From positions 744,001 to 808,000 of the forward strand of contig NZ_CP043476.1 of NCBI RefSeq assembly GCF_009769165.1: a stretch of 64,000 nucleotides of DNA, in the 5' to 3' direction. The position numbers and the translations under genes were made by a program. The notes under the pieces are model-generated. The model did not search any database, had not been told where the DNA came from, and saw only the letters and a list, made by a program, of their open reading frames with translations. This DNA comes from Xanthomonas hyacinthi (lineage in GTDB: Bacteria; Pseudomonadota; Gammaproteobacteria; Xanthomonadales; Xanthomonadaceae). Below, piece after piece: positions 40,212-47,415 of the stretch. How positions within the stretch are numbered: position 1 is the first letter of the stretch; every line of letters begins with the position of its first letter.

Positions 40212-40486
40212 GCGCCGCGGCGCCCGACAGCTGCCCGCGCCTGGCGGCCGGCGTGCGCCTGCAGCACGACCGCACCCGCGCGCAATGGGTGCTGCTGGCG
40301 CCGGAACGGGTGATCGAACTGGACGCGATCGCGCATGCGATCGTGTCGCGCTGCGACGGCGTGCGCTCGCTGGCGGCGATCGCCGCGGAACTGGCCGCGC
40401 AGTTCGAGGCCGACCCGTCCGAGGTCGAGCGCGACGTGCTCGAACTGGCCGCGCAGTTGCACGACAAGCGCCTGCTGCGCGCATGA
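40208..40486 (+). CDS. pqqD: PQQ peptide chaperone PqqD
   Basis: A 92-residue RiPP-recognition-element protein that holds PqqA and presents it to PqqE. Conserved features: [24 protein letters not shown], then a winged-helix part ([20 protein letters not shown]) and the C-terminal [15 protein letters not shown]. Start and stop overlap pqqC and pqqE by four bases each, so the three proteins are translated together. Confidence 0.96.
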
Positions 40487-41604
40487 ACGCCGACGTGCCG
40501 CCGCCGCTGTCGCTGCTGCTCGAGCTGACCCACCGCTGCCCGCTGGCCTGCCCGTACTGCTCCAACCCGATCGCCCTGGCCGGCCTGCGCGAGGAGATGG
40601 ACACCGCCGGCTGGCGTTCGGCGCTGGACCAGGCCGCGGCGATGGGCGTGCTGCAGGCGCATTTTTCCGGCGGCGAGCCGATGCTGCGCAAGGACCTGCC
40701 CGAGCTGGTCGCGCATGCGCGCGGGTTGGGCCTGTACAGCAATCTGATCACCTCCGGCGTGGCCGGCGGCGCGCCGATGCTGGCGCAACTGGCCGCCGCC
40801 GGGCTGGAACACGTGCAACTGAGCGTGCAGGACGCCGACGCCGCCGGCGCCGACCGCATCGCCGGCTACCGCGGCAGCCTTGCAAAAAAGCGTGAGTTCG
40901 CCGCCGCGGTGCGCGCGCTGCAGCTGCCGCTGACGATCAACGCGGTGATCCACCGCCACAACGCCGAACGGGTGCCGGCGATGATCGAACTGGCACTGGA
41001 ACTGGGCGCCGAGCGCCTGGAAGTGGCGCATACCCAGTACTACGGCTGGGGCCTGCGCAACCGCGCCGCGCTGATGCCCAGCCGCGCGCAGATCGACGCC
41101 ACGGTGGTCGCGGTGACCGCGGCGCGCGAACGGCTGCGCGAGCGCCTGGCCATCGATTTCGTCACCCCCGACTACTACGCGCACCGGCCCAAGGCGTGCA
41201 TGGGCGGCTGGGGCCAGCGCTTCGTCAACATCTCCCCGCGCGGCGACGTGCTGCCCTGCCACGCCGCCGAAACCCTGCCGGACATGGTGTTCGAAAACCT
41301 GCGCGAGCGGCCACTGGCGGCGATCTGGCGCGACGGCGAAGCGTTCGCCCGCTACCGCGGCACCGCGTGGATGCCGCAGGTGTGCCAGGGCTGCCCGAAA
41401 CGCGAGATCGACTGGGGCGGCTGCCGCTGCCAGGCGCTGGCGCTGAGCGGCGACGCGGCCACGCTGGACCCGGTGTGCGAACGCGCCCCGGCGCACGCTG
41501 AACTGCAGGCGCTGGCGCAACGCGAAGCGGCCGCCGCCGCACCGGCGTTCGTGTATCGGCGGCCGGCGCGCGCGCCGGCCACAGCCGCGGCCGCCGACGA
41601 CTGA
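40483..41604 (+). CDS. pqqE: PQQ synthase radical SAM enzyme PqqE
   Basis: A 373-residue radical SAM/SPASM enzyme that links Glu and Tyr of PqqA. The SAM cluster motif is C19-x3-C23-x2-C26 in [13 protein letters not shown]. The SPASM cysteines are at [29 protein letters not shown] and DPVCERAP. The protein ends in an Ala/Arg tail. No pqqF/pqqG protease follows, so precursor cleavage must use a protease encoded elsewhere. Downstream lies a decayed gene fragment. Confidence 0.97.
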
Positions 41605-41656
41605 GCTGTCGAGGCGGCGTCGCCAGCGGCGATCCCCCAGGCCTTGCGCATCCACG

Positions 41657-41775
41657 ACTTGCGACTACATTGCGGCGCATTCCGCTGCCCGGATTGCCGC
41701 CACGTCCATTGCGCGCCTGGCTTCCATGTTGAAGAACCACGGCTTCTTCGGCGTCGGCAGCCACGATGGAAAAGT
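41657..41775 (+). pseudogene. Decayed partial copy of the exported-protein gene at 45105
   Basis: About 65 nt (41659-41723) match the leader and first codons of the gene at 45105 (45062-45126) at roughly 80 percent. Shared landmarks are CTTGCGACTACA, CTGCCCGGAT and TTGCGCGCCT. After an internal gap of some 230 nt the match resumes: GAAGAACC.CGGCTTCTTCG..TCGGCAGCCA at about 41730-41763 corresponds to 45362-45394. The ATG and most of the coding region are lost. It lies on the pqqE side of the LytTR/acyltransferase cassette, while the intact gene lies on the other side. Confidence 0.8.
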
Positions 41776-41796
41776 ACAGGCAGCAAAAAGCAACCG

Positions 41797-42930
41797 TCAT
41801 TTCAAAAGACGACCGGAGCGCGGAGGCTTCTCCCTCATCCCGAAAACAAGACGCAGCCCTGCAAACCTGCGCAGGCATCCTTCGTAGAGCCCAAGGCACG
41901 CGGCCATGCTGAGGAGCAGGATGACGAAGTATTTGATCCATGGCCCCCACGAACACTGGATGACGTAGTAGCCGATCACGACAATGATCGTCTGGTGCAG
42001 GATGTAAAAGGGATAGCTGGCGTCTTTCGCCCAGGCAAGCACCCGGTTCGTCCGCGAGAGATAGCGGTAGCCGTAACCGAGAAACACCATCATCCATAGC
42101 CAGGTGAAGACATTGGCGCCAACCTGATCGATCAGGGAGTCGTGCTCGATGACCCCCAGACTGAACAGCGAGATCAGCAAGAAGAACGCCGCCAGCCCCA
42201 GGACGAGCGACCACCTGCGGACATCGGAGAGCCACTTCCAGACACCGGGCATGGATGCCATGAAGTATCCATATGCCGTCAGCAGCAGGTAGTGGCCGAA
42301 GATGTACCAATCGCTGACGAAATTGTGCGTCTCCGGGAACCGCAGCTTCAGAAAAGCTTCGTTGATGCCGAGCGGAATTCCCAGCAGGAAAAGCCACGTT
42401 CCTGGCGCAATTTGCGTTGCGGCCCGCCTCCACCACAGCATCGCGGGAAGCAGCAACAGTACGTACGCGTAGAGGTACAGGATGAACCACAGGTGGTGCC
42501 AGCCGAAATCCCCGGCCGGGTAGAATTTCAATTGCAGAACGCGTGTCAGGTAGAAATCCAGATAGCTTCCGCTCCATTGCCCATGCAGCAGCCGCTCGTA
42601 GTAGATCTGCGGCGGCACGACCAGGAACATGCCGACGATCAGCGGCAAAAGCAGTTTCTTCGTCCGTTCCTGCAGGAACTGCCCGGTACTGCGCCGCTGC
42701 AGCGCGAACCACATGCCGGCCCCTGCGATGACGAACAGCAACGGCATGCGCAAGCGGTGGGCGATATCCATCGGCCATTGCAGCGACGGAATGGTCTGGC
42801 TGTTGACGATATGCCAGCCCCAGCCGACGAAGATCATCCCGGTATGGAAGAAGAACAGCACGAAAATGGCGATCACGCGCAACCAGTCCAGGAAGTCGTA
42901 GCGCTCCTGCGGGTGTGTGGTGGCAAGCAT
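41797..42930 (-). CDS. Membrane acyltransferase, acyltransferase-3 family (OpgC-like)
   Basis: A 377-residue protein with about ten membrane segments. The N-terminal RYDFLDWLRVIAIFVLFFFHTGMIF carries the conserved Arg and His of acyltransferase-3 proteins, and RLRMPLLFVIAGAGMWFALQ follows. This family adds acetyl, succinyl or similar groups to surface glycans or lipids; MdoC/OpgC modifies periplasmic glucans. It is third in a minus-strand unit behind a LytS kinase and a LytTR regulator (102-nt gap), so its expression or substrate may be linked to that signalling pair. Base composition is slightly less GC-rich than in the surrounding genes. Substrate unknown. Confidence 0.85.
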   Translation of the reverse strand: MLATTHPQERYDFLDWLRVIAIFVLFFFHTGMIFVGWGWHIVNSQTIPSLQWPMDIAHRLRMPLLFVIAGAGMWFALQRRSTGQFLQERTKKLLLPLIVGMFLVVPPQIYYERLLHGQWSGSYLDFYLTRVLQLKFYPAGDFGWHHLWFILYLYAYVLLLLPAMLWWRRAATQIAPGTWLFLLGIPLGINEAFLKLRFPETHNFVSDWYIFGHYLLLTAYGYFMASMPGVWKWLSDVRRWSLVLGLAAFFLLISLFSLGVIEHDSLIDQVGANVFTWLWMMVFLGYGYRYLSRTNRVLAWAKDASYPFYILHQTIIVVIGYYVIQCSWGPWIKYFVILLLSMAACLGLYEGCLRRFAGLRLVFGMREKPPRSGRLLK

Positions 42931-43032
42931 CGATTGGGCCCCTGTCTCCGCGATACCGTGGAGCCTGAGCGAACGGCAGCCGGCCCGCAGCGGATTTGGG
43001 GTGAAAGGAGACCCGCCGGGGCGAGGCGGACG

Positions 43033-43773
43033 CTACCCGCCCATGCGAGCGAACAAGGCGTCGCGATAGCGCCGGCTGAGCCGCAGGGTGCGGCCGTTGC
43101 GGAGATGGAGGTCGTAGTCGCCCTTGAACAGCGGCGTCAGCGATCCAATGCAGGCGAGGTTCGCCGCGGCCGACCGGTGGATGCGGACGAAGCGCTGTTC
43201 GCCCAGCTGCGCCAGCAGATCCTGCAGCGTCCTGCGCATCAGGTAGGTGCGCGCGGCGGTATGCACATGCACGTAGTTGCCGTCTGCTTCCAGCCATTCG
43301 ATCGAGGCCGCATCGATCAGCTGTAGCCGCTCGCCATCGGGCACGAGCAGGCGCTCGCATGCAGGAGTGCGCGCGCGTCCCATCGCCACCGCCGCGGCAC
43401 CGGACTCGTGTGCGCTGAGCCGCTCGCGCACGCGCTGCACGGTCAGCGCGAGCCGGTCGCGGTCGTAAGGCTTGAGCAGGTAGTCGATCGCATTGAGGTC
43501 GAACGCCTTCACGGCATGCGCATCGAAGGCGGTCACGAACACGATCAGCGGCGCGCTCGACGGCTCGAGCTGCGCCGCGACCTGCAGCCCAGACAGCGTC
43601 GGCATCTGGATGTCGAGAAAGGCCACGTGCGGGCGCTGCTGCTTGATGCACAGGGCCGCGGACAATCCGTCCTCGGCCGATCCGACCACCGCGATGCCGG
43701 GCTGCTCCGCCAACCAGCGCTCGAGCTTTTCGCGCGCGGGGGCTTCGTCGTCGGCGATCACGGCGCGGATCAT
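43033..43773 (-). CDS. LytTR-family response regulator
   Basis: A 246-residue regulator. The receiver domain (residues 1-115) has the acidic pocket DDE (8-10), phospho-acceptor D54 (AFLDIQMPTLSG), T/K motif FVTAF and LLKPYD. The LytTR DNA-binding domain (about 140-240) includes IEWLEADGNYVHVHTAARTY, RIHRSAAANL and LRLSRRYRDAL. It overlaps the kinase gene by ATGA. LytTR proteins bind paired imperfect repeats; none was identified confidently here. Confidence 0.95.
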   Translation of the reverse strand: MIRAVIADDEAPAREKLERWLAEQPGIAVVGSAEDGLSAALCIKQQRPHVAFLDIQMPTLSGLQVAAQLEPSSAPLIVFVTAFDAHAVKAFDLNAIDYLLKPYDRDRLALTVQRVRERLSAHESGAAAVAMGRARTPACERLLVPDGERLQLIDAASIEWLEADGNYVHVHTAARTYLMRRTLQDLLAQLGEQRFVRIHRSAAANLACIGSLTPLFKGDYDLHLRNGRTLRLSRRYRDALFARMGG

Positions 43774-44879
43774 CGCGTGGCCTCCGCCAGCGGGATCGAG
43801 ACGCGCGCGGCAACGCCGTCGCCCTCGTTACGGACAATCAAGGAGGCGGCATCGCCGTAGATGATGCCCAGGCGCTCCCGGCAGTTGCGCAATCCCACCC
43901 CGTCCTGCCTCCCCGGCGCAGGCAGGGTGGAGCAGGAATTGTGCACCACGATCTCCAGCGAGCCGCCTGCGTGTCGCGCACTGACCGCGATGGCGATGGG
44001 CACCAACGTGGGCTCGACGGCATGTTTGAACGCATTCTCCAGCAAGGGCTGCAGCAGGAGCGCAGGGACACTGGCGTCGAGCAGTGCGGGGTCCACCTGC
44101 CATGTCAGCGTCACCCGATCCCGGAACCGCTCGCGCATGATGTCCGCATATCGCTCGAGTGTGCGCAGTTCCGCGGACAGCGGCGTCATCTCGTTCTCGA
44201 TGGTGCCAAGGCTGGTGCGCAGCAGGTCGCCGAGTGCCGCCAGCAGGCGGTCGGCGCGTTCCACGTCGCTGTGCATCACGGACGAGACGGTGTTGAGCGC
44301 GTTGAACAGGAAATGCGGCCGCAGCTGCCCCTGAAGCTGCGCCAGCTGCGCCTCGGCCAGCGCCTTCTGCGTTTGCAGCAGGCGATTCCGCTGCAGTTGC
44401 CACTGGTCATGGGACTCGAGCCCGAACAGAATCCCCAGCCATAGGCCCACAAAGACGCTCAGCTTGGTGGTCTCGTACACGAACAGGTAGCGCCAGCCCG
44501 GGTGCTCGTAGGTGAGGCCCATTGCGGCATAGATCCCGTGCCGTAGCGCATACACCGCCACGATGAAGGTGACGGCGATCACCGGCAACCAGCGCAGGTA
44601 GCTGCCGAACCAGATCAGGGGCTGGTCCAGATAAGCCGCATGACGTCCGCGCACGCGGACGGCAAGCCAGATCCAGCCGGTCGCGACCAACGCGGAACTT
44701 CCCTCCGACAGCACCCCTTCCCACCAGTGGGTCTGCGGATTACTCAGGCGCTCCTGCACGGAAACGCCGATCATGAGCAGCCAGAACGCCACCCACAACA
44801 CGATCAGCGCTTTCGGAGTGGACATCGCGCCGCTGGCAGCGAGGGCGCCTGCCCGTGGCGGACGAGATGGCGGGTTCAT
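43770..44879 (-). CDS. LytS-type sensor histidine kinase
   Basis: A 369-residue membrane kinase of the His_kinase (PF06580) type. Four hydrophobic segments lie within residues 23-155 with little periplasmic sequence, so the signal may be sensed in the membrane. A coiled region (LLQTQKALAEAQLAQLQGQL) precedes phospho-acceptor H189 in LRPHFLFNALN. The ATPase domain has LLQPLLENAFKHA (N box) and DGVGLRNCRERL (G box). It is co-transcribed with the LytTR regulator and acyltransferase. The start at MNPPSRPPR (44879) is preferred; MSTPKALIV, 18 codons later, is possible. Signal unknown. Confidence 0.92.
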   Translation of the reverse strand: MNPPSRPPRAGALAASGAMSTPKALIVLWVAFWLLMIGVSVQERLSNPQTHWWEGVLSEGSSALVATGWIWLAVRVRGRHAAYLDQPLIWFGSYLRWLPVIAVTFIVAVYALRHGIYAAMGLTYEHPGWRYLFVYETTKLSVFVGLWLGILFGLESHDQWQLQRNRLLQTQKALAEAQLAQLQGQLRPHFLFNALNTVSSVMHSDVERADRLLAALGDLLRTSLGTIENEMTPLSAELRTLERYADIMRERFRDRVTLTWQVDPALLDASVPALLLQPLLENAFKHAVEPTLVPIAIAVSARHAGGSLEIVVHNSCSTLPAPGRQDGVGLRNCRERLGIIYGDAASLIVRNEGDGVAARVSIPLAEATR

Positions 44880-45104
44880 GATGGGCAAGTGTACCCACGG
44901 CATTCCGGGCGGGCGTGGCCTGCGGGGCAAGCGGGACATACACGGGGCGAAAGGGCCGATAGCGGGGACAAGCTCCGTAGCACCCCATCGACCGGCATTT
45001 GGCTAAGCGACCGGACCCGGGGCTGGGCCGAGCGGCCGCCGCGGGCGCCAGACGCGGCGCGCTTGCGACTACACTACGCCGCACTCCACTGCCCGGATCC
45101 CGCC

Positions 45105-45617
45105 ATGCTGCTTGCGCGCCTCACTCCCCTGGTCCTGTGCGCGGTGCTCGCCGTGGCCGCCGCTCCCGCCGCCGCGCAGCGCGCCGTGGCCGGCGATTTG
45201 CAGACGCAGATGTCGGCGCAGCAGTTCAAGGCCGCCGGGCTGGACAAGCTGTCGCCGCAGGAACTGGCCGCGCTGAACGACTGGCTGCAGGGCAAGGTCG
45301 CCAACGAGACCGCGGTGGCGCTGCAGAAGGCCAAGGAAGAAGGCCGCCAGGAAGTGATCGTGAAGAACCGCGGCTTCTTCGACTTCGGCAGCCAGGAGCC
45401 GATCGAGAGCACCCTGGTCGGCGAGTTCACCGGCTTCTCCAAGGGCCGCCGCTACGTGCTGGCCAACGGCCAGGAATGGGAGCAGACCGAGTCCGCCAGC
45501 CTGAGCAGCGTGCACCGCAGCGCGCCCAAGGTGAAGATCACCCCAGGCATCATGGGCGTGTGGTACCTGCAGATCGACAATTACAACACCCGCGCAAAAG
45601 TCCGCCGTATCAAATAG
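45105..45617 (+). CDS. Small exported protein, conserved but uncharacterised
   Basis: A 170-residue protein with a signal peptide (LLARLTPLVLCAVLAVAAAP, cut before QRAVAG). The mature part has a Lys/Glu-rich helix (VALQKAKEEGRQEVIVKNRG) and a C-terminal beta-rich segment (FTGFSKGRRYVLANGQEWEQ, ITPGIMGVWYLQIDNYNTRA). I recognise no named family. It ends nine nt before the chloride channel gene. A decayed partial copy of its leader and an internal segment lies at 41657-41775, across the two-component/acyltransferase cassette. Confidence 0.78.
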   Translation: MLLARLTPLVLCAVLAVAAAPAAAQRAVAGDLQTQMSAQQFKAAGLDKLSPQELAALNDWLQGKVANETAVALQKAKEEGRQEVIVKNRGFFDFGSQEPIESTLVGEFTGFSKGRRYVLANGQEWEQTESASLSSVHRSAPKVKITPGIMGVWYLQIDNYNTRAKVRRIK

Positions 45618-45626
45618 GCGCGTGCC

Positions 45627-47415
45627 GTGAACGTGCGCCAGCACCGGCGGCTGGGCCTGGCCGATGCCTCGCACAGCCTCGCCGACGCGCTGCGCCGGCG
45701 CTTCCGCGCCAGCGATGTCTGGTTCATCGCGCTGGCCCTGCTGGTCGGCCTGCTCGCCGGCCTGCTGACCCTGCTGCAGAGCGGCCTGGCGCACGGCGCG
45801 CAGGCCTGGCTGTACGGCCTGGACGTCGATGCCCGGCTCAGCGCGATGCCCGAACTGAGCCTGGGCCAGTTGCTGGTGCTGCCGTTGGGCGGGCTGCTGG
45901 TCGGCCTGCTCGGCATGGCCGCGCGCGCGCGCAAGCGCCAGCTGATCGATGCGGTCGAAGCCAATGCGCTGTACGGCGGGCGCATGTCGATGCGCGACAA
46001 CCTGATCGTGTCCGCGCAGACTCTGCTGTCCAACGGCTGCGGCGCTTCGGTCGGGCTGGAGGCGGCGTACACGCAGATGGGCGCGGGCAGCGGCTCGCAC
46101 CTGGGGCGGATCCTGCGCCTGCGCCGCGCCGACATCCGCACCCTGGTCGGCGCCGGCGCCGGCGCGGCCATCGCCGCCGCGTTCGGCGCGCCGCTGGCCG
46201 GCGCGTTCTATGCGTTCGAGATCGTGATCGGCGCCTACTCGCCGTCGGCGCTGGCGCCAGTGGCGGTGGCCTCGCTGGGCGCGGTGTTCGTGGCCCAGGC
46301 CGCCGGCGTGCAGCCGTATCTGTTGCCGGCCTCGGCGGCGTCCGCGCTGGAGGCGCGTGACTACCTGCTGTATGCGTTGCTCGGCGCGATCTGCGCGCTG
46401 CTGGCGGTGGCGGTGATGCGCCTGGTCGCGGCGATCGAGCAGGCGGTCAACCGCAGCCCGCTGCCGCGCTGGGCGCGGCCGGTGGCCGGTGGCCGGCGGC
46501 CTGATGCTGATCCCGCTGGCGCTGATCACCCCGCAGGTGCTCTCCTCCGGGCACGGCGCGCTGCACCTGGACCTGACCAGCCCCACCTCGCTGCAATGGC
46601 TGGGCGTGCTGTTGCTGCTCAAGTGCCTGGCCTCCGGCATCTCGCTGGGCTTCGGCTTCCGCGGCGGCCTGTTCTTCGCCTCGCTGTTCATGGGTTCGCT
46701 GGTCGGCGGCCTGTTCGCCGGGCTGTTGAACCTGGGCAGCGGCATGGCCCTGGTCGACGGCACCGCCGCCTCGCTGGCCGGCATGGCCGCGCTGGCCGCG
46801 GCGGTGGTCGGCGCGCCGATGACGATGGCGATGCTGGTGCTCGAGGGCACCCACGATTTCGTGCTGGCCAGCGCGGTGATGGTGGCGGTGCTGGTGGCCA
46901 ACACCATCGTGCGCCAGGTGTTCGGCTATTCGTTCTCGACCTGGCGCCTGCACCTGCGCGGCGAGACCATCAAGAGCGCGCGCGACGTGGGCTGGGTCAA
47001 GCACCTGAGCGCCGGCCGGATGATGCGCCAGGACGTGCACCCGCTCGCCGCCACCACCTCGGTGGCCGAATTCCGCCGCCGTTTCCCGCTCGGCTCGGGC
47101 GTGCGCGTGGTGCTGGAGGACGCACACGGCCACTACGCCGGGCTGGTGACGCTGGCCGCGGCCTATGCCGACGGCGTCGATGCCGGCGCGGCGATCGTCG
47201 CCTACGCCGGCAACCGCGACGTGGCGCTGCGCGCCGAGACCGACGTGGTCACCGCGATGCGCCAGTTCGACCTGACCCAGAGCGACGAACTGGCGGTGGT
47301 CGACGAACACGGCAAGGTGCTCGGCGTGCTGACCGAAAGCTTCGTGCGCAAGCGCTACGCCGAGGAGCTGGACAAGCGCCAGCGCGAACTGATGGGCGAG
47401 CGGGTCGACGATTGA
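45627..47415 (+). pseudogene. ClC-type chloride channel with C-terminal CBS pair, frameshifted
   Basis: Two frames together encode a full voltage-gated ClC family protein. The first (GTG 45627 to about 46490) carries LLVLPLGGLLVGLLGMAAR and the selectivity region SNGCGASVGLEAAYTQMGAG and AFGAPLAGAFYAFE. The second (46489-47415) carries GFGFRGGLFFASLFMGSLVG, VVGAPMTMAMLVLEGT, and a C-terminal region with two CBS motifs. The frame changes at three near-identical 7-bp units: CCGGTGG (46479), CCGGTGG (46486), CCGGCGG (46493). Removing one unit restores ...RPVAGGLMLIP... without a gap. It may be a true mutation, a slippage switch or a sequencing error. As read, no full-length channel is made. Confidence 0.85.

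Follow-up and report, generated by a model that had tools for sequence, protein, structure and literature searches.

How does a signalling operon come to lie between two conserved genes, with a ruined copy of one neighbour on its far side? The question is raised by a 64,000-nt stretch of the Xanthomonas hyacinthi genome (contig NZ_CP043476.1, positions 744,001 to 808,000), here called the window, to which all coordinates refer. A minus-strand unit of three genes, encoding a histidine kinase, a LytTR response regulator and an acyltransferase, separates pqqE from a plus-strand gene for an exported protein, and a decayed piece of the latter gene (the remnant) lies between pqqE and the unit. The genome carrying the locus (G000) was compared with relatives coded G001 to G019, the fetched loci being given L-numbers; the exported-protein gene was found in all 20 genomes of this genus set and the neighbourhoods of the 19 others were compared. 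The explanation that accounts best for the data, and that we consider very probable, is that the operon would have entered the group from outside, that one founding event in a lineage outside the clade of G000 left the exported-protein gene duplicated, and that the whole block was later transferred into G000.

The remnant and its distribution

The remnant (41657..41766, plus strand) preserves the leader and part of the gene in two collinear pieces. The first piece, 41658-41718, aligns to 45062-45121 with 80.3% identity over 61 nt, and the second, 41730-41766, aligns to 45361-45397 with 89.2% identity over 37 nt. Between them the remnant lacks about 228 nt that the intact gene has (41728 pairs with 45131, and 41730 with 45361), the start codon reads ACG and the unit truncates the copy at codon ~98. 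The local score of the remnant against the intact gene is 57, the maximum across 1000 dinucleotide shuffles being 31, and a looser gapped score of 116.6 exceeds all 1000 shuffles (maximum 80) as well as all 516 other 230-nt segments of the window that were tried (maximum 94). Alignment and shuffles thus confirm the first-pass annotation of this DNA, which had recognised a degraded leader and partial gene copy at 41657-41775 with about 230 nt deleted inside. Its estimate of about 80 percent identity holds for the 61-nt piece but not for the 37-nt piece, and the left edge that it placed at 41657 is that of the gene copy but not that of the homology, which begins at about 41627 in the comparison with the DNA between pqqE and the exported-protein gene of G010 (80.6% over 103 nt for 41627-41728).

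The same remnant is present in two other species. The corresponding region of G000 is 87.8% identical to that of G008 over 196 nt and 81.7% identical to that of G007 over 197 nt; the deletion junction and the cut at codon ~98 are identical in both, and the start codon is ACG in all three carriers. Because the three filled sites share a remnant with the same internal deletion, they trace back to one founding event. One further, distant paralogue of the exported-protein gene in G000 (32% identity) is uninvolved.

Filled sites, in which the unit lies between pqqE and the gene and the gap measures ~3.5 kb, were found only in G000, G007 and G008 among the 20 genomes. In 15 of the 20 the site is empty, with pqqE followed by one intact copy of the gene after a gap of 100-222 nt, and the remaining two (G001 and G019) have no pqqE within the fetched stretch. 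The three named Xanthomonas loci from outside this species group (L003, L004 and L009) are all empty as well, whereas no pqqE match was obtained in the four Stenotrophomonas loci fetched. A second leader copy was not found at the empty sites; extra copies occur only in G000, G007, G008 and an unrelated array in G019. The expectation of the first-pass annotation that strains free of the unit should have pqqE followed directly by one intact copy is therefore realised in 15 genomes and the three outside loci. The picture that it regarded as fatal, in which all relatives carry the same arrangement or the match sinks into background identity, is not what was seen, with 15 empty sites against three filled ones and a score above that of the shuffles. 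In G001 (L039), a pqqC fragment adjoins the exported-protein gene and neither pqqD nor pqqE was matched in the fetched stretch, so that the pqq cluster looks decayed in that small genome.

Mosaic flanks of the block

The origin of each part of the locus was read from positions fixed between clade A (G002, G003, G004, G014, G016, G017 and G018, with G019 added for the right flank) and clade B (G005, G006, G009, G010, G011 and G013); such sites are few, and none falls in 45061-45104 or 45221-45300. On the left, G000 is of the clade A type through most of pqqE (40483..41604, plus strand; NCBIfam PqqE equivalog, 532 bits against a cut-off of 381), with nine A sites, no B site and one other in 40483-41282 and eight A to one B in 41283-41482. 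The type then changes: 41483-41728 has three A and ten B sites, only 13 in all, three of which form one gap block. This stretch includes a relic of non-clade-A intergenic DNA (41605..41656, plus strand), matched in G010 and with one A and four B sites, three of these five being that single block. Sliding identity agrees, that of G000 to clade A falling from 95 to 81 and then 77% at 41483-41582. On the right, the spacer between unit and gene leader (44979..45061), common to G007 and G008 and missing at empty sites, is donor-like up to ~45060, and clade A sites resume in the intact gene (14 A to one B in 45105-45617) and continue beyond it (20 to none in 45618-46400; 18 to one in 46401-47400). 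Near this spacer, a blastn match between G008 and G000 (87.4% over 619 nt) is sounder than the global alignment, which misplaces G008 left of 45021.

Divergence and trees point the same way. For the pair G000 and G008, five flanking genes have a synonymous divergence (dS) of 0.26-0.35 and the three unit genes one of 0.07-0.13; for G000 and G003 the values are 0.09-0.20 in the flanks and 0.23-0.32 in the unit. In the unit tree G000 joins G008 and then G007, all branches having a support of 100/100, and a grouping of G000 with G002, G003 and G014 is rejected (approximately unbiased (AU) test, p 4.5e-5). In the flank trees G000 groups with clade A and G008 with clade B, and G000, G007 and G008 as one clade are rejected on both sides (AU p 7.9e-5 left, 5.0e-4 right). 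From these sequence comparisons it is concluded that G000 received the unit by homologous recombination, its flanks being of one clade and about 41.48-45.06 kb foreign. The left crossover lies at about 41457-41481 (41.46-41.48 kb), the final ~120 nt of pqqE thereby belonging to the incoming segment, and the right one at or near the conserved leader of the intact gene (45062..45104, plus strand), about 45046-45108 (45.05-45.11 kb). The block entered with the remnant already in it. Of the two routes considered in the first-pass annotation, import from a relative together with a homologous flank is thus supported for G000, and recombination duplicating the flank must have happened once, earlier and in another lineage, since all three carriers share the remnant and its deletion.

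Several observations weigh against this account or blur it. Sampling was limited to one genome per species. G008 is of the clade B type at its fixed sites on both sides (10/10, 20/20 and 19/19), yet the end of its pqqE is mixed (four A and five B of nine sites in 41283-41482); G007 is intermediate between the clades (11 A and eight B of 19 sites in 46401-47400); and inside the segment the nearer relative of G000 alternates between G007 and G008. Because of the mixed pqqE end of G008 and the intermediate position of G007, the donor is taken to be an unsampled relative and not either of these two. G007 may itself be a second recipient: its exported-protein gene resembles clade B at 45108 and 45119, but clade A at 45216 and at all eight sites in 45301-45400. 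The case is weaker, as G007 is intermediate elsewhere. The remnant adds a further difficulty, in that its 5′ piece scores best with clade B (with G010 for G000; for the remnant of G007, G010 is tied with others) and its 3′ piece of 37 nt matches clade A equally well or better, which points to no single founding lineage. A remnant of clade B origin throughout is not supported by this last comparison.

An unrelated cassette in front of the same gene

In G019 (L057:2412-10510), where pqq genes are absent, a cation-efflux gene is separated from the exported-protein gene by three tandem units of ~2.5 kb. Each opens with a copy of the leader and ~36 codons of the latter gene, interrupted by a small internal gap, and each holds an open reading frame (ORF) for a Tle1-like protein with an XVIPCD domain (PF20410, PF09994) and one further ORF; the intact gene follows the last. 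The order of gene fragment, cassette and intact gene is that of the X. hyacinthi locus, with a cargo unrelated to the signalling unit. The extra 5′ copies in G019 may have allowed the tandem amplification of the cassette. Whether the leader is a recurrent capture site, at which at least two independent cassettes were installed with an extra 5′ copy of the gene, is an idea that we regard as rather doubtful.

The founding event

At the founding, the operon lodged once between pqqE and the exported-protein gene, leaving two copies of the latter, by a mechanism that we infer. The intact copy would have retained its function, and the pqqE-side copy, cut at codon ~98, lost its start codon and ~228 nt. 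The spacer at 44979-45061 may hold a relic of the pqqE tail, in which case the right copy would have begun in that tail: in G000 its resemblance to the pqqE tail exceeds 300 of 300 shuffles, but against G003 only (one of 15 empty sites), and in G007 and G008 the resemblance is non-significant (109 and 77 of 300 shuffles reach it).

For this founding step alone, a proposal compatible with the account favoured above, and to which we give a little less than an even chance, is homology-facilitated illegitimate recombination (HFIR), or integration by a single crossover, of DNA in which the operon lay next to a copy of that gene. Pairing would have taken place within the gene at one end, while the other end joined without homology, giving one truncated and one intact copy. 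In HFIR, one homologous anchor and one non-homologous join can add DNA and leave a truncated gene copy (PMC3240628), and the process was proposed for effector modules in Vibrio arrays (PMC5361080). The truncated copy on the pqqE side, the full copy with its leader on the opposite side and the same layout with a different cassette in G019 fit it. No source genome was found, however, with the operon beside the exported-protein gene away from the pqqE site, the second-site loci described below having no match to the gene. The founding junctions, moreover, are decayed, the right spacer too much so for the join to be read.

That the filled site was ancestral to the group and was lost repeatedly except in G000, G007 and G008 appears very improbable. 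The remnant is old and occurs in lineages on either side of the clade split, and direct repeats flanking the unit could have aided its deletion; but many precise losses would be required (15 of the 18 pqqE-bearing sites are empty) and none left a remnant behind. For G000 in particular, a plain model of ancestral presence is disfavoured by a unit dS to G008 below that of the flanks and by the conflict between unit and flank trees. Lower still stands a site-specific integrative element that would attach at the 5′ end of the gene, the remnant being the second copy of the attachment site. The same leader does adjoin two different cassettes, both of them bracketed by copies of the 5′ end of the gene; yet in both the start of the leader may simply mark where conservation ends, and the duplicated stretches are unequal gene fragments, reaching codon ~98 here and ~36 in G019. 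No recombinase, transposase or integrase was found among the three unit genes, and none of the ten further ORFs tested in the unit had a Pfam match at E 0.001. Chance or low complexity in a GC-rich region with many weak repeats can be set aside almost entirely as a source of the remnant, given the shuffle maximum of 31 against a score of 57 and the presence of the same remnant in two other species.

The unit and its neighbours

The unit (41786..44978, limits set by blastn homology to a second chromosomal site of G002, G003 and G014) holds three minus-strand genes. The kinase (43770..44879, 369 aa; His_kinase, PF06580, 2.9e-21) starts at an ATG at 44879 that is kept in all six carriers of the unit, which makes a longer start at 44939 unnecessary. 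Its gene overlaps by 4 nt that of the response regulator (43033..43773, 246 aa), which has a receiver (PF00072, 1.1e-20) and a LytTR DNA-binding domain (PF04397, 4.9e-23) and is the most conserved protein of the unit (98.4-99.6% between G000 and G007 or G008). The acyltransferase gene starts ~100 nt further on (41797..42930) and encodes an OpgC/OafA-like membrane protein of 377 aa (Acyltransferase_3, PF01757, 1.6e-27).

The name LytS, given to the kinase in the first-pass annotation, is acceptable if used broadly, for a PF06580-family kinase paired with a LytTR regulator, but not for a true LytS: no match to the Pfam domain 5TM-5TMR_LYT, which we take to be the LytS-type membrane domain, was found even at E up to 10, and only two clearly hydrophobic 19-residue stretches were seen on a crude scale. 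The regulator scores 171 bits against the NCBIfam cut-off of 246 for BtsR and 115 against 375 for LytR, below both. An assignment of the acyltransferase as an MdoC/OpgC glucan succinyltransferase equivalog was ruled out by the NCBIfam MdoC cut-off (91 against 338 bits), the Acyltransferase_3 family itself being matched. Domains and gene order suggest that the unit is probably a two-component system controlling the adjacent acyltransferase: the membrane kinase would phosphorylate its LytTR partner, the regulator would control the neighbouring gene and the acyltransferase would decorate a glucan or an envelope polysaccharide. A promoter scan gave no sites and a terminator scan two, no more than in shuffles. 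Literature searches returned no papers on this LytTR/acyltransferase unit, and none of those on pqqE insertions in Xanthomonas concerns this locus, judging by their titles and the opening lines of their abstracts.

The product of the intact exported-protein gene (45105..45617, plus strand, clade A type, 170 aa) has an N-terminal hydrophobic segment and matched no Pfam family. Next to it lies a ClC-type chloride channel gene (45627..47415, plus strand) of clade A type (38 A and one B of 39 fixed sites in 45618-47400), the family being assigned on the unbroken copy of G019. Its frame is broken near 46.49 kb in G000 and is uninterrupted, in one frame and nearly full length, in 18 of the 19 other genomes; the break may be a real mutation or an assembly error. 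In G015 (L053) no ClC match was found 3′ of the exported-protein gene, and the next large ORF there resembles what is presumably a helicase gene downstream in the window.

A second chromosomal site and the probable source of the operon

The acyltransferase (88-95% identity) and the kinase (81-94%) are found in the same six of the 20 genomes. In G002, G003 and G014 the unit occupies the second site, at a distance of ~55 kb (second-site loci, including that of G018: L062, L078, L063 and L082), beside what we take to be a Crp-like gene and RebB-like genes; on the other side an amino-acid permease is present in G002 and G003 and none was matched in G014. Homology between the two sites spans 41786-44978 and excludes the exported-protein gene, with blastn identities of 89.6% over that span for G003 and, over slightly shorter spans, 87.9% for G002 and 86.2% for G014. 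The second site thus varies as well: in G018 the unit is missing from it and pieces of a large ORF, presumably Rhs/XVIPCD-like, are present. The second-site kinase gene of G014 (L063:9595-10758) contains a single in-frame TAG codon; at 0.32, its dS to G002 clearly exceeds the 0.09-0.14 of its neighbours.

The relative age of the two sites is not settled by rooting with three sequences from another family, one of them forming a very long row. In the coding-DNA tree G003 joins the pqqE-site units with a support of 97/98, and a single clade of second-site units has an AU p of 0.043. In the protein tree the second-site units form one group (93/94), the alternative having an AU p of 0.098, and codon positions 1+2 favour neither arrangement (AU p 0.25).

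Outside the genus, the operon is found in the sister family, which we infer to be the Rhodanobacteraceae. The kinase was detected at E<=1e-60 in four of 247 genomes of the family, all of this genus, in a draw that missed some of its carriers, and the acyltransferase at E<=1e-120 in five of 299 genomes from the order, of which three belong to the other family. All three loci fetched from that family have the same order of kinase, LytTR regulator and acyltransferase. With the 8000 best candidates scored, the named matches in the top 120 of 1469 and of 3252 proteins belong to Xanthomonas, Rhodanobacter, Dyella and Luteibacter, with a few others (e.g. Steroidobacteraceae, Stenotrophobium). Compared with the operons of Dyella, Luteibacter and Rhodanobacter, genes and order are the same, at protein identities of 70-75% for the acyltransferase, 75-80% for the LytTR regulator and 59-64% for the kinase, whereas the unit of the Xanthomonas group is sporadic and occurs at two sites. 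Since the operon is widespread there and sporadic here, Rhodanobacteraceae are its probable source, from which an operon of this common type would have entered the group.

Relation to known systems and significance

According to its authors, the raxX-raxSTAB cluster spread laterally by general recombination in flanking core genes (PMC6637879). Like that cluster, the present unit is a patchy cassette between conserved genes, with sharp boundaries and no recombinase or transposase gene; intact empty sites exist, its presence is off the species tree, donor-type sequence extends into the flanks and the alleles of a flanking gene depart from the species tree. Unlike it, the unit involves other genes and another site, a decayed duplicate of the flanking gene travels with the cassette and a second site has the same cassette. 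The locus is a new example of spread of the rax type, informative rather than exotic, in which the decayed duplicate additionally records the history of the cassette.

The decayed copy is a natural tag whose common deletion allows three filled sites to be traced to one event, and the mosaic flanks indicate that a cassette moved between species by plain recombination without genes of mobile elements. The unrelated cassette at the same leader in G019 makes the readiness of this junction to accept DNA a testable question. If the leader were indeed a recurrent capture site, incoming DNA would regenerate its own target and the exported-protein gene would stay intact.

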